Assembly (NCBI GenBank): GCA_937873695.1
Contig: CALMYL010000006.1
Location: forward strand, 353,185 to 417,184
Direction: 5' to 3'
DNA: 64,000 nucleotides
Origin: an uncultured Ignavibacteria bacterium
GTDB lineage: Bacteria > Bacteroidota > Ignavibacteria > Tepidaquicellales > OLB5
Position 1 is the stretch's first letter; each line of letters opens with the position of its first letter. Below the pieces are notes generated by a model. That model ran no database searches. It worked only from the letters and a program-made list of their open reading frames with translations, and was not told the origin of the DNA. A program made the position numbers and the translations under genes. Positions 43,684 to 50,149 of this stretch are shown here, one piece after another.

Positions 43684-43793
43684 AAGCAGCAAAGTTACCT
43701 GAAAATTCGGGGTTGTTCAATTCACTTTATTGTATTGTAATACTTACTATCAACATAGCACAAAAAAATATTTTCAGCTATCTTTGCTATACA

Positions 43794-44828
43794 ATGTATA
43801 AAAAAATTATCAGGCCGCTTTTATTTGACTACGACCCCGAAAAAGTTCATAATTTCACAATAAACAGGCTTTCCGGTTCATTATTCCCTTCAATTTTGAA
43901 GATGTTTTTAGGTTTTGAAGATAAGAAACTTGAGACTAAAGTTGGCAGGCTAATTTTCCGCAATCCTATTGGACTTGCCGCCGGAATGGATAAAAACGCT
44001 ACTGCGCTTGCCGGATGGGACGCAATGGGCTTTGGGTTTGCTGAAGCAGGCACGGTAACTCCGTTACCGCAGGATGGTAATCCCAAACCAAGGATGTTCC
44101 GCCTGCCGGAATACGGCGCGGTCATAAACAGGCTTGGATTCAATAATGCTGGAGCAGATGAGTTTGAAAAAAACCTCGAGGCTTCAAAGGAAAAAATAAG
44201 AAAAGATTTCATTGTAGGCGTAAACATCGGGAAGAATAAACATACAGAGCTTGATGATGCTTACCAGGATTATAAATTCTCGTTTGAGAAGTGTTTTGAG
44301 ACCGCTGATTATTTTACAATAAATGTCAGCTCACCCAACACAGAAGGATTACGTCAGCTTCAGCAGAAAAAATTTCTTGATGAAATCTTAAAGCATCTTC
44401 AGCAGCTGAATAATGAACTTGATACAACATATTCAGATACGGCAAAGGATATTTACCTGAAAATAGCCCCTGACCTTACAGAAACGGAGCTAGATGATAT
44501 AATTCAGGTATCAATTGATAATAATATTACCGGGCTCATAGCTACAAATACAACCATCTCGCGGGATACACTGCCTGAAGGGAAATATGAAAGCGGGGGA
44601 CTTAGCGGTAAACCGCTTGAACCTATTGCTAATTCAGTAATAAAATATGTGATGGAAAAAGCTGACGGCAAACTAGTTGTAATTGCCTGCGGGGGGATAT
44701 CAACTTACGATGATGTAAAGGAAAAAATGGATCTTGGCGCATCACTTGTGCAGGTGTATACAGGGCTGATATATGAGGGACCGGGAATGATAAAGAAAAT
44801 TAAGCAGAAACTTAAATCAAACTTATAG
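43794..44828 (+). CDS. pyrD: Dihydroorotate dehydrogenase (quinone), class 2
   Basis: The ATG at 43794 is preferred, because the frame upstream from 43713 gives 27 residues without family character. 344 residues. N-terminal helices (MYKKIIRPLLFDYDPEKVHNF) are those of class 2 enzymes, which bind the membrane and quinone. NPIGLAAGMDKNA (57-69), GFGFAEAGTVTP (79-90), INVSSPNTEGLRQLQ (176-190, with the class 2 catalytic Ser) and IGLIATNTT, GGLSGKPL complete the FMN site. It oxidises dihydroorotate in pyrimidine synthesis. The foreign-looking nuclease-NACHT gene begins 7 bp after its stop. Confidence 0.94.
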   Translation: MYKKIIRPLLFDYDPEKVHNFTINRLSGSLFPSILKMFLGFEDKKLETKVGRLIFRNPIGLAAGMDKNATALAGWDAMGFGFAEAGTVTPLPQDGNPKPRMFRLPEYGAVINRLGFNNAGADEFEKNLEASKEKIRKDFIVGVNIGKNKHTELDDAYQDYKFSFEKCFETADYFTINVSSPNTEGLRQLQQKKFLDEILKHLQQLNNELDTTYSDTAKDIYLKIAPDLTETELDDIIQVSIDNNITGLIATNTTISRDTLPEGKYESGGLSGKPLEPIANSVIKYVMEKADGKLVVIACGGISTYDDVKEKMDLGASLVQVYTGLIYEGPGMIKKIKQKLKSNL

Positions 44829-44835
44829 TACACTT

Positions 44836-47235
44836 ATGCATGATTCATTAAAAGATACAATTTCGGCTTTAAAAGAAAAAGAGCTCACATTAGAAATTTT
44901 GATTCCGTTAGTGGAAAAGTTACATCCTGGTAGAACTGAGTATACTCACTCTACTATGGAAGCAGGAAGAGATATTGTTTCATTCGGGAAAGATTATTTA
45001 GGTAGGCAACATATTCTATGCATTCAGGCTAAGGCTATAAGAATTTCTTATGGGGCATCTTCATTTCAAGAAGTTGTCAATGCAGCTCAATTTGCAAAAA
45101 ACGAAGGAGTAACTTCACAAGATGGGAATATTATTCTCCCCGATGAAGTTTGGATAATCACCTCTCAAGTATTCCCTGAACCGCAAAGAAAACTTGTAGC
45201 AAATAATTTGAAAGAATTAAATAATAAGGGCATAAAATTGATAGCTTTAGATGAACTATGTCCACTTATTATTCAACATATACCAGATATTGCTACAAAA
45301 TTGTCAAAATATACAGATTCTTCTGTTACTCAATTAATCTCCGCGTTTTCTAAACATAGTGATAGTCGTGCATTTGGTTTTGCTATTGACAGACTTCTTG
45401 AAGATTTTTATATACCTGTGACATTCGCACCACATGCTAAATATGCGAACCTATTGTTAGAAGGTAGTATAGTAATAGATGCTGAATTAAAAAAGGAGTA
45501 TCATTTAAGCCTAAAAACTCTAATGCCAAATGATGAAATTAATGAAAAAACATCAAGTATATATAAAAAAATTTTAGAAATCATAAACAAGAAACTATGC
45601 ACGTTTAGCGTTAATAAACAGACAATAGAAATTAAGCATACTTTATTTGCAAATGATAATTATAACAAATATGAAATTATAGACTATAAAAATACTTTCA
45701 AAAAGATACAAGTACTGGAGCAAGAATTAAAAGCTAAGAACAAACTTACAAAAAAGGATAAAGAAGAAAAGGAATTAAAGCTTAAGCATTTAAATTATGA
45801 ATTGAATAACTATTACTTTAATATTACTATTGATTTTGATTTAGTAACACAAATTGCGTTGCTAAAAAGACAAACTAAAGCAGCCATTAATACTTGTCCA
45901 AAAGTTTTAGGACAACACATAGACAAATTTATTGAAACTTATGGTAAAATAACTTTCTCAAATTCTTTTGTCAAATACTTATTAAATGAATTCGATGAGA
46001 TAAAAGTAAAAGAAAAGTATTATGAAGAAGAAATAATTAGAATCAGGGTACCAGAACCGATTAGAGTTTTAGAATTGTCCGATTTTATTTTGATAGAAGG
46101 TCCACCTGGAAGTGGAAAAACCACTTTTTTAAAAGTGTTAGCTATGAATGTATTAGATAATGGTGGTAAAATTCTATACGTGCCTTGTGGTTCTATCCCA
46201 ATTGCATATGCTAAAAAGAGCTTAGATTTTATAATTAGAAAATGCGAAATGGGGAGAATTGGTGATAAATGGAAAAATGAGGATTCAATTTTGATTCTGG
46301 ATGGTTTAGATGAAGCACCCTTTGATTTGGCAGATTTAATATTGAATAATCACCATAAGTACAAAAAAATATTTGCTTCTGCACGTACTGCATACAGTAC
46401 CAAAGTGAGGGATGAAGCTTTTAATATTGGTTTAGCGATGTTTAAGGCAAAAGAGAGAGACAAATATTTTGAAAGATGGTTTTTCGATAATGAAAAGGCG
46501 CTAAAAGATGTAAAACAATTAATAAAAAAGTATGAAGACATTGATTACCATACTAGATTGCCATTAATCGCAACTTTAACTGCTTCTTTGATAGAGAATG
46601 GTTATGAACCAACTACAAGGTCTGAAATATACAACTATAGACTTGATTTGCTACTTTCTAAATGGGATAGATCGCGTGGGGTAGAAAGAAACAGAATTGA
46701 TAATCCTAAAGCTAAGAGAATGTTTCTTATGACTTTAGCTTTCAATGTACATAATTCGATAAATAGAAGGAGGTATTTTACGTTAGACGATGTAAGAATT
46801 GCATATGAACAAGCATTAGGCAATTGGGGCTATGAACACGATTACCAACTATTTTTGGATGACCTCATAGTTGGAAGTGGAATAATATTTGAAGAGCAAG
46901 CAAAAATATATTCTTTTGGGCATCTTTCATTTCAAGAGCATTTAGCGGGTGAATATCTAAATTTTCACAATTTCAATAATTCAAAAATCAAGGATTTATT
47001 ACTTCTTGAATGGTGGAGAGAACCGTTATTATTTTATGCTTCTGCTATTGGTGATATTACTAAGTTGGTGCAGTATATATCACAAGATGAAAATTTTTTT
47101 AATTTTTCTGAAATACTGAATCAAATGGCGGTTTATGCGCCATATACTAATCCAGGTGTAATAGAAATTGTGAAAGAATCAATTATTTTAGTTGATGAAG
47201 AAAGAATTCAAGAAGAAAATAGTAATTCAGTTTAA
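44836..47235 (+). CDS. Nuclease-NACHT STAND ATPase, candidate anti-phage protein
   Basis: 799 residues. The N-terminus (about 20-110) is a PD-(D/E)xK nuclease-like domain of Mrr type: EAGRDIVSF (42-50; E42, D46) and CIQAKA (62-67; Q64, K66). Residues about 150-400 are a linker, with a coiled-coil-like stretch near 295-325. The NACHT ATPase has Walker A GPPGSGKT (422-429), Walker B LILDGLDE (486-493), the sensor ASARTAYS and the winged-helix signature FGHLSFQEHLAGEYL (694-708). Only about 90 residues follow, so there is no LRR or TPR sensor. The gene is visibly AT-richer than pyrD before it. Architecture matches bacterial NLR-like/Avs defence proteins; the trigger is unknown. Confidence 0.85.
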   Translation: MHDSLKDTISALKEKELTLEILIPLVEKLHPGRTEYTHSTMEAGRDIVSFGKDYLGRQHILCIQAKAIRISYGASSFQEVVNAAQFAKNEGVTSQDGNIILPDEVWIITSQVFPEPQRKLVANNLKELNNKGIKLIALDELCPLIIQHIPDIATKLSKYTDSSVTQLISAFSKHSDSRAFGFAIDRLLEDFYIPVTFAPHAKYANLLLEGSIVIDAELKKEYHLSLKTLMPNDEINEKTSSIYKKILEIINKKLCTFSVNKQTIEIKHTLFANDNYNKYEIIDYKNTFKKIQVLEQELKAKNKLTKKDKEEKELKLKHLNYELNNYYFNITIDFDLVTQIALLKRQTKAAINTCPKVLGQHIDKFIETYGKITFSNSFVKYLLNEFDEIKVKEKYYEEEIIRIRVPEPIRVLELSDFILIEGPPGSGKTTFLKVLAMNVLDNGGKILYVPCGSIPIAYAKKSLDFIIRKCEMGRIGDKWKNEDSILILDGLDEAPFDLADLILNNHHKYKKIFASARTAYSTKVRDEAFNIGLAMFKAKERDKYFERWFFDNEKALKDVKQLIKKYEDIDYHTRLPLIATLTASLIENGYEPTTRSEIYNYRLDLLLSKWDRSRGVERNRIDNPKAKRMFLMTLAFNVHNSINRRRYFTLDDVRIAYEQALGNWGYEHDYQLFLDDLIVGSGIIFEEQAKIYSFGHLSFQEHLAGEYLNFHNFNNSKIKDLLLLEWWREPLLFYASAIGDITKLVQYISQDENFFNFSEILNQMAVYAPYTNPGVIEIVKESIILVDEERIQEENSNSV

Positions 47236-47782
47236 AATAATTGCGACTCAAGAATATCTTGTAAAGCATAAAGTATCCTTGTTTTCTTTCCTTTCTTCTG
47301 GTTATTGGCCTTTCCATAGCGTACCAAAAATTCCCATAGAAAAACTGGAAAAGCAGTATGCCGAAGGTTATTTTAATAGCGAAAGTAACAAAACATTCCT
47401 GATATTGAATGAAGTCGGATCGATTATCGGTGTAATTAGATTGTTCGATCTCGGCTCAGGAAAGGATGACGATGAAACACCGCTATTTGATATCAAAATT
47501 AAAGAAGAATACCGCGGTAAAGGCATTGGCAAGCAGGCTTTAAGCTGGCTGACTGATCTTGTATTTACAAACTATCCTAATAAACTGAGATTTGAAGCCA
47601 CAACAAGAGTTGATAATATTGCTATGCGGAAAGTTTTTGAGTATTGCGGTTTTGTGAAGGAAGCCCATTATCGCCAGGCATGGCCGGATGCTGAAGGGAA
47701 CAGATACGATTGTACCGGTTATGCAATTTTACGAAGTGACTGGCTGAATAAAACCAAAACACCCGTTAAGTTTGAACTTTAG
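47195..47782 (+). CDS. GNAT acetyltransferase
   Basis: 195 residues from the ATG at 47195; the first 41 bp overlap the end of the nuclease-NACHT gene in another frame. No later ATG fits, since the first conserved piece (ATQEYLVKHKVSLFSFLSSGYWPF) starts soon after. KNGxG-type acetyl-CoA loop: EEYRGKGIGKQAL (about 108-120). Then FEATTRVDNIAMRKVFEYCGF (about 137-157), typical of RimJ-like enzymes. The N-terminus looks replaced or shortened by the neighbouring gene, so its expression may depend on translation of that gene. Confidence 0.83.
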   Translation: MKKEFKKKIVIQFKIIATQEYLVKHKVSLFSFLSSGYWPFHSVPKIPIEKLEKQYAEGYFNSESNKTFLILNEVGSIIGVIRLFDLGSGKDDDETPLFDIKIKEEYRGKGIGKQALSWLTDLVFTNYPNKLRFEATTRVDNIAMRKVFEYCGFVKEAHYRQAWPDAEGNRYDCTGYAILRSDWLNKTKTPVKFEL

Positions 47783-49576: not shown

Positions 49577-50149
49577 TTATTTTACACTGATCATAAAATA
49601 CCTGTACTCATCACCCTTGGCATCATGGATAATTTCCCATTTCGCTTTGTAGGTCCCGGCAAGTTCAATCGGGCCTCCGTGTATGAGAAAAGGCTGGATC
49701 TCATCTTTAGTAACTGAACGAAGGTTAACGGAATCGCCGGCAAACAGCTTGTATATTCCGCCGTTTATTGATTCCCAGATATTCTTTCGTTTTGTAATGA
49801 ATACTTCAGTGCATGTATCATATCCCTGACCCTTCAGCTGTTCAAGGAATTTGAGATCCTGAATTACACGGTAAAGATCTACGTGACTGGCATTTTCATC
49901 TTTCGGCATTTTGAGTTCAATTACATGCTTCTGAACACCGCTTTCTATAATGAAAATATCAGCTTCCTTGTTTGCAAGCTTAGGTATAGGATTAAACATA
50001 CGTGATACTGGGTAATCAAGTTTTACGTTCAGCTCAGGGTAGTATTTCTTGAGGAAAATACCAAGTTCATGCCTAAAACCTGATTCATTGTACAGTTCAA
50101 AAGGGGATTGTGAAAAATATTTAAAGAAATGCTGAATAATTTCCTTCAT
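49577..50149 (-). CDS. PD-(D/E)xK nuclease-fold protein, orphan
   Basis: 190 residues. Around residues 59-82 the sequence KEADIFIIESGVQKHVIELKMPK shows D64-(x)13-E78-x-K80, the catalytic pattern of PD-(D/E)xK nucleases, preceded by an acidic-aromatic helix region (ESGFRHELGIFLKKYY, about 23-38). No DNA-binding or ATPase partner is adjacent, and no modification enzyme. It may act on damaged or foreign nucleic acid; that is inference from the fold only. The product family is not one I can name. Confidence 0.6.
   Translation of the reverse strand: MKEIIQHFFKYFSQSPFELYNESGFRHELGIFLKKYYPELNVKLDYPVSRMFNPIPKLANKEADIFIIESGVQKHVIELKMPKDENASHVDLYRVIQDLKFLEQLKGQGYDTCTEVFITKRKNIWESINGGIYKLFAGDSVNLRSVTKDEIQPFLIHGGPIELAGTYKAKWEIIHDAKGDEYRYFMISVK

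Follow-up and report, generated by a model that had tools for sequence, protein, structure and literature searches.

What kind of protein joins an Mrr-like nuclease to a NACHT ATPase with no repeat sensor behind it, and where such a protein would sense its trigger, are the questions raised by a gene in a window of 64,000 nucleotides, the whole stretch of DNA analysed here, from an uncultured Ignavibacteria bacterium (assembly GCA_937873695.1, contig CALMYL010000006.1). The gene occupies one reading frame of 813 codons from stop to stop, without internal stop, and its product has four parts: nuclease (residues 1-165), middle region (166-408), NACHT and winged helix (409-710), and tail (711-799). 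The observation of an intact nuclease-NACHT gene with a short tail is confirmed. Neither PADLOC nor NCBIfam gave a specific model for the 799-aa protein, and an AlphaFold model of its full length has a mean pLDDT of 63.9. The features of the locus are as follows.

43713..44828, + strand: pyrD (dihydroorotate dehydrogenase), left flank (Pfam DHO_dh, 1e-79)
44836..47235, + strand: nuclease-NACHT gene, 799 aa (one ORF, ATG start)
44836..45330, + strand: PD-(D/E)XK (Mrr-like) nuclease domain, residues 1-165 (Mrr_cat, alignment, fold)
44959-44961, + strand: nuclease residue E42 (alignment)
44971-44973, + strand: nuclease residue D46 (alignment)
45025-45027, + strand: nuclease residue Q64 (read in sequence)
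45031-45033, + strand: nuclease residue K66 (alignment)
45331..46059, + strand: middle region or "linker", residues 166-408, candidate for a sensing or regulatory role (no known domain)
46060..46965, + strand: NACHT-winged-helix module, residues 409-710 (Pfam, Foldseek, invariant residues)
46099-46125, + strand: P-loop, G422-T430, with K428 at 46117-46119
46297-46314, + strand: Walker B, LDGLDE, residues 488-493 (motif)
46915-46938, + strand: FGHLSFQE, residues 694-701 (motif)
46966..47232, + strand: short tail of helices, residues 711-799 (NCH1, SNaCT and repeat domains not found)
47195..47782, + strand: GNAT acetyltransferase, right flank (Pfam Acetyltransf_1, 1.8e-11)

The ATPase is the most readily recognised part of the protein. 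Pfam NACHT matched residues 417-550 with an E-value of 1.5e-7 and 31.9 bits, above the curated cut-off of 26.7, and a Foldseek search with the full model returned the NACHT regions of NLRP3, NOD2 and NLRC4 as the best PDB matches (best E 9e-14). The protein has intact P-loop, Walker B and FGHLSFQE motifs, in common with distant NACHT proteins. The Pfam score, the leading Foldseek matches and the invariant motifs thus place the protein among NACHT ATPases, and the first-pass annotation, which had proposed a complete NACHT ATPase, was correct on this point. H696 of FGHLSFQE aligns with residue 506 of two enterobacterial nuclease-NACHT proteins, L073 (E. kobei) and L111 (E. coli).

The N-terminus alone scored against Mrr_cat at an E-value of 0.0083 and 16.7 bits, below the Pfam cut-off of 21. 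E42, G44, D46 and K66 (E42-x-G-x-D46 plus K66) are invariant across 11 aligned nuclease domains, among them those of L073, L060, L098 and L099, which pass the Mrr_cat cut-off. The acidic residue and (E/Q)-x-K signature of PD-(D/E)XK nucleases is present as D46 and Q64-x-K66, at the positions first annotated; D46 and K66 are invariant, but Q64 is not conserved, as position 64 is Q in the window protein and V in all three of its same-layout relatives in the 11-domain alignment. Putative nuclease activity across the same-layout lineage is unsure for this reason. A model of the isolated domain (pLDDT 68.5) gave no restriction-enzyme or other match at E<=0.001 with Foldseek alone. A second look with VIA-align, which covered only the 1000 chains ranked highest by Foldseek, placed AF1548 (Z 10.0, rmsd 2.7, 110 aligned) and AspBHI (Z 10.0) at the top, with further matches to MspJI (Z 9.1), FokI (8.8), Shedu (8.1) and the Avs4 nuclease (7.2), and on this alignment the domain has the PD-(D/E)XK core fold. 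The Z values lie close together across many PD-(D/E)XK enzymes and hence do not indicate a mode of action. The invariant residues, the restriction-type fold and the alignment of D46 with D48 of both L073 and L111 raise confidence in the nuclease domain. Fusion of a nuclease to NACHT, as claimed previously, is therefore borne out by Pfam, the invariant residues and structural alignment, and the N-terminal domain may be expected to cleave DNA by analogy with the defence proteins bNACHT25 and bNACHT32. The same type of nuclease domain, with a Q-A-K motif like that of the window protein, also occurs without NACHT in a stand-alone protein (L099 2241-3101, genome G168).

Between nuclease and NACHT lie ~245 residues (about 166-408), in agreement with a first estimate of ~250. 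Pfam searches with the middle regions of three members, like a search of PDB profiles, gave chance-level matches only, and the pLDDT of the region in the AlphaFold model is mostly below 50. It is also the part least conserved between the relatives L022 and L027, with 22% identity compared to 42% in the nuclease, 39% in NACHT and 30% in the tail; such low conservation fits a loose spacer as well as it does a sensor under pressure. Relocation of the helical NCH1 domain to the middle of the protein was considered and rejected, as profile comparison of the region with NCH1-type tails gave a probability of 0.2% and an E-value of 0.39. A weak middle-region match in another genome (G013) was also rejected, since it falls in an unrelated frame resembling a SerB/SerA-type gene.

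From F694 of FGHLSFQE to the end of the protein there are 106 residues. Pieces of the tail matched zero Pfam families, with no NCH1, SNaCT or repeat family among them; the same Pfam library detects NCH1 in L073 at 6.5e-37, alongside Mrr_cat and NACHT. In the model the tail consists of helices to about residue 767, and residues 770-799 have pLDDT below 50. The first-pass annotation had described a protein with no repeat sensor and with almost nothing after the winged helix: the former holds, and the tail is indeed short, but the latter was slightly overstated given the 106 residues that follow F694.

A scan of genome contigs using the window protein and L022 gave 47 loci, of which 34 were processed (L026 was read separately). 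Three proteins share the layout of the window protein. L022 (WP_155326374.1, 831 aa, annotated as a hypothetical protein only) is encoded on a Desulfosarcina ovata plasmid and aligns with the window protein from end to end at 26% identity; L027 (819 aa), from Blastocatellia, shows 23% identity over the full alignment; and L026 (5977-8545), from Terriglobia, is split into two frames near product residue 290, where real decay and assembly error cannot be told apart. Profile searches of 395 genomes of the phylum and 391 of the class found a full-length match in the bacterium's own genome only. These searches also returned the nuclease-NACHT proteins L096, L123 and L125, in which the P-loop lies near residue 236 and the motif is followed by about 260 residues. 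L060 from Hymenobacter, one of the contig-scan loci, carries the nuclease but has bNACHT25-like proportions. A NACHT protein in genome G268, with a different start and end, was rejected as a member of the same-layout family.

To compare proportions, 25 proteins were chosen, of which 24 possess the motifs; L114, which lacks them, was dropped here and from the phylogenetic tree. The tail from FxHxSFQE is 101-141 residues long in the four members (101 in L022 and 126 in L027) versus 195-458 in 20 other NACHT proteins, and the P-loop starts at residue 410-448 in the three unsplit members versus 220-253 in L073, L111, L060 and L096. A short tail also occurs outside the lineage: L035, a NACHT protein from a cyanobacterium whose N-terminus is of another kind, has 93 residues from the motif to its end, and the other frames showed no continuation. 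L040 and L072 are also short-tailed; the former runs into a contig end and the latter is a fragment. On a tree of the NACHT domains, with hand-chosen rows, weak deep forks and several long branches, including that of the window protein, the four same-layout proteins form one branch (90/89) apart from the bNACHT25-like L073, L111, L060 and L096 (84/87). The four proteins constitute a small, scattered lineage with its own layout, in which the middle region is long and the tail shortened. A literature search, which is no proof of absence, brought no account of this layout to notice. The layout adds a nuclease-NACHT family that is found across distant phyla and has no specific PADLOC or NCBIfam model.

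As to carriage by viruses, three scans of IMG/VR gave no relative. From a phage collection only two records, both of Vibrio phages, were obtained, and the one read is of SNaCT11 type: a NACHT gene (L023 12520-14310) near the record end of a small Vibrio phage (Vinavirales, 14.8 kb), annotated as bNACHT01-like. The match in the other Vibrio phage record is similar.

The window gene begins 7 nt after the pyrD stop codon. pyrD is present in 13/13 genomes of the genus. A search of 14 other genomes of the family, 12 of them congeners, found the nuclease-NACHT gene in none. The GNAT gene directly follows pyrD, leaving an empty site, in six of the 12 congeners (L004-L008, L013); in L014 it lies farther from pyrD, and in the other five congeners it was not seen in the stretch fetched. 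In the close relatives L004-L007, GNAT starts 4-8 nt past the pyrD stop, and in L008 and L013 the two genes appear to overlap. The nuclease-NACHT stop codon coincides with the position matching the ancestral GNAT start (about 47234), and the first ATG of GNAT (47195) is now within the 3' end of the nuclease-NACHT gene. Compared by eye with the empty sites, the junction has no evident duplicated bases or scar. The nuclease-NACHT gene also has the lowest GC (0.303; window mean 0.392, sd 0.032) and the lowest GC3 (0.215) of the 49 ORFs of at least 150 aa in the window; pyrD rows of L008 and L013, which were in the wrong frame, were left out of this composition analysis. These comparisons confirm the scarless placement between pyrD and the acetyltransferase and the AT-richness relative to neighbouring genes that had been noticed from the sequence, and the absence from 14 related genomes, the empty junction in 6/12 congeners and the GC minimum support recent arrival of the gene in this genome. 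As a side effect of the insertion, GNAT has lost its ancestral start codon, and reading from the ATG at 47195 adds 13 N-terminal residues.

Other NACHT genes were encountered in these genomes. The bacterium's own genome (contig C8 of G000, L097 1360-4325) has a second NACHT gene (635 aa) after a PcnB/CCA-like nucleotidyltransferase gene, and the pair sits between gyrA and threonine aldolase, two genes that stand next to each other in the 8 congeners used for comparison. The gyrA-aldolase spacer holds other inserts in at least two congeners (a short MNT-like nucleotidyltransferase frame in L106, identified by eye, and another frame in L103) and therefore looks like a hotspot. A 1068-aa NACHT protein in genome G582 (L122 3700-6906), whose gene follows a valyl-tRNA-synthetase-like gene and one for a small protein, ends in many nearly identical tandem repeats (unit DRAIDSLIALTKD...) that look like recently multiplied repeats in a sensor.

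The same-layout genes differ in their neighbourhoods. On its circular plasmid, the Desulfosarcina gene (L022) lies 2.0 kb from a PDC-S28 helicase gene (4.5e-250) and about 9.3 kb from genes for E1-E2 (2.8e-188) and JAB (2.9e-53) proteins, which stand beside a nucleotidyltransferase gene; the nucleotidyltransferase is known from annotation, and E1-E2 and JAB from scanning. E1-E2, JAB and the nucleotidyltransferase together presumably make up a type II CBASS. The island around L022 (L093-L095, NZ_AP021877.1) also holds genes for a UvrD helicase, a PD-(D/E)XK protein and a metallophosphoesterase. In Blastocatellia, 22 nt separate the start of the gene (L027) from a PDC-S71 gene upstream (9.8e-150); the PDC-S71 protein (L027 2973-4763) has a possible nuclease-like motif by eye (DEWADYIAVD...HCKHG), and a two-gene unit is possible there. 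No PADLOC match was found among seven scanned neighbours of the Terriglobia gene (L026), and the window contains no defence island, as PADLOC matched only a cysteine desulfurase resembling DndA/SspA among 10 neighbours scanned. Defence-gene surroundings therefore occur in two of the three same-layout relatives, and neither at the Terriglobia copy nor at the window gene. No conserved partner gene is common to the neighbours read beside the window gene, L022, L027 and L026, and this speaks, if only mildly, against a neighbouring gene for an obligate partner. A separate 190-aa protein in the window (49577-50149, minus strand) has a possible D-x(n)-E-L-K nuclease-like motif by eye (EADIFIIE...HVIELK), no PADLOC match and only a weak Pfam match to Maf. 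The neighbourhoods of the relatives and homology to bNACHT25/32 make the defence role suggested in the first-pass annotation likely.

The reading that we favour, with fairly good confidence, is that the gene encodes a single-gene anti-phage effector of the bNACHT (bacterial NLR-related) kind, in a lineage of its own and with an abortive nuclease. The protein is related to the NLR immune receptors of animals and joins a DNA-cutting domain to a NACHT switch, probably to stop phage infection. The evidence consists of the intact gene, the NACHT motifs, the nuclease fold with its conserved acidic residue and lysine, a layout that recurs in four distant genomes (in two of which defence genes lie nearby), and the recent arrival; activity, trigger and sensor position are inferred. 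In the resting state, the NACHT module would be bound to ADP and the nuclease held idle. Either a product of the phage or some host process that infection disturbs would release the hold, upon which NACHT would exchange nucleotide and oligomerise, bringing the nuclease domains together to cut phage and host DNA and stopping infection at the cost of the cell. DNA cutting on activation, the abortive outcome and the need for D46 are suggested by the behaviour of bNACHT25/32.

With the nuclease and switch kept, most of the tail gone and a long region in the middle, the layout allows the question of where sensing sits to be put directly. The strongest alternative, to which we give somewhat less than even weight, is the same defence protein with the middle region as a spacer or oligomerisation arm, and with sensing either in the short tail of helices or by an indirect route that involves a host protein. 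Conservation of the middle region is poor and AlphaFold gives it no confident fold, as would be the case for a loose spacer; a tail of 101-141 residues is retained in all four members; and bNACHT25 is itself triggered indirectly and requires the chaperone DnaJ (PMC12169576). However, 245 residues, present in distant members too, are long for a mere tether, when the P-loop of bNACHT25-type proteins lies near residue 220-250. A tentative reading, which we regard as distinctly less than even, is that of a separate NLR-like lineage with a moved sensor, where the trigger is read between nuclease and NACHT and only a stub is left of the C-terminal sensor. Any part of the middle region in sensing is a guess: the linker is a possible sensor, and indirect triggering by way of a host factor, as with bNACHT25 and DnaJ, is about as likely. 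A moved sensor, if true, would break the order of effector, NTPase switch and C-terminal sensor in which STAND immune proteins are described (PMC12169576).

We consider it improbable that the protein is a restriction enzyme dependent on modification or phage DNA, whose trigger would be DNA itself and whose NACHT module would serve as oligomeriser or NTPase motor. Among the best structural matches of the nuclease domain are AspBHI (Z 10.0) and MspJI (9.1), both modification-dependent, as is Mrr, but similar Z values are obtained across many PD-(D/E)XK enzymes, and Pfam showed no DNA-reading domain in the middle region or tail. To our knowledge, NACHT is a switch and not a known DNA motor. Little credence is due to a non-defence STAND regulator, tied for example to the neighbouring pyrimidine gene. 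STAND ATPases such as MalT regulate transcription, and the gene, starting 7 nt after pyrD, likely shares its transcript; however, it is absent at the pyrD site in relatives, a nuclease is present, Pfam reveals no DNA-binding activator domain, and two of the three same-layout relatives lie with defence genes and not with pyrD. Very improbable is a decayed, inactive nuclease-NACHT gene that has lost its C-terminal sensor: although the tail lacks about 140 residues relative to bNACHT25-like proteins, GNAT follows at once and L035 illustrates that short tails can arise separately, the frame has no stops or frameshifts, the catalytic and NACHT motifs are all kept, and three distant relatives have the same short tail.

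The anti-phage effector of bNACHT kind that we favour can be set against several known systems. Its N-terminal fold resembles the Avs4 nuclease (8dgf residues 2-176, Z 7.2, rmsd 3.7, 130 aligned), at a Z tied with many other PD-(D/E)XK enzymes. The domains of Avs4 we take to be Mrr-STAND-TPR. Unlike Avs, the window protein has no long C-terminal TPR sensor, with 106 residues from motif to end and no repeat family. A profile check against Avs families, suggested by the first-pass annotation, was made with PADLOC and gave no Avs match at E<=1, so that Avs membership was rejected; the window protein is not an Avs protein. Avs had been the yardstick of that annotation, a choice not borne out by the PADLOC result or by the repeat-free nuclease-NACHT proteins described in PMC12169576. 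Members of bNACHT clade 14, such as bNACHT02 and bNACHT12, carry SNaCT and no recognised effector domain (PMC12169576). Like them, the window protein has NACHT and no repeats; unlike them, it gave no SNaCT match, the match of SNaCT11 in L023 (3.7e-48) serving as positive control. With L022 and L027 it shares the order and proportions of the parts along the whole length and a short tail after the motif, differing from both in having Q, not V, at position 64.

The nearest characterised proteins are bNACHT25 and bNACHT32 of clade 6. These phage-defence proteins without repeats consist of a PD-(D/E)XK domain, NACHT and a helical NCH1; the substitution D48A abolishes both DNA degradation and defence, and H506L renders bNACHT25 active without phage (PMC12169576). 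L073 and L111 appear to belong with bNACHT32/25, judging from residue numbering (D at 48) and from accessions adjacent to that of bNACHT32, as L073 adjoins genes whose accession numbers neighbour it. By alignment with L073 and L111, D46 and H696 of the window protein correspond to D48 and H506. The window protein further shares with bNACHT25/32 an N-terminal PD-(D/E)XK domain with E-x-G-x-D and lysine, NACHT, the FxHxSF motif and the lack of a repeat sensor. It differs in having no NCH1 and 106 versus about 250 residues after FxHxSFQE, and from bNACHT25-type proteins in having its P-loop at residue 422 versus about 220-250 and, on a tree whose deep forks are weak, in occupying a separate branch of NACHT domains. 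In clade 6 the PD-(D/E)XK domain stands shortly before NACHT; the window protein has the nuclease, but ~245 residues intervene. A nuclease-NACHT protein without repeats is thus of a kind already known from bNACHT25/32, and it is therefore not the missing repeats that surprise, but the altered proportions.
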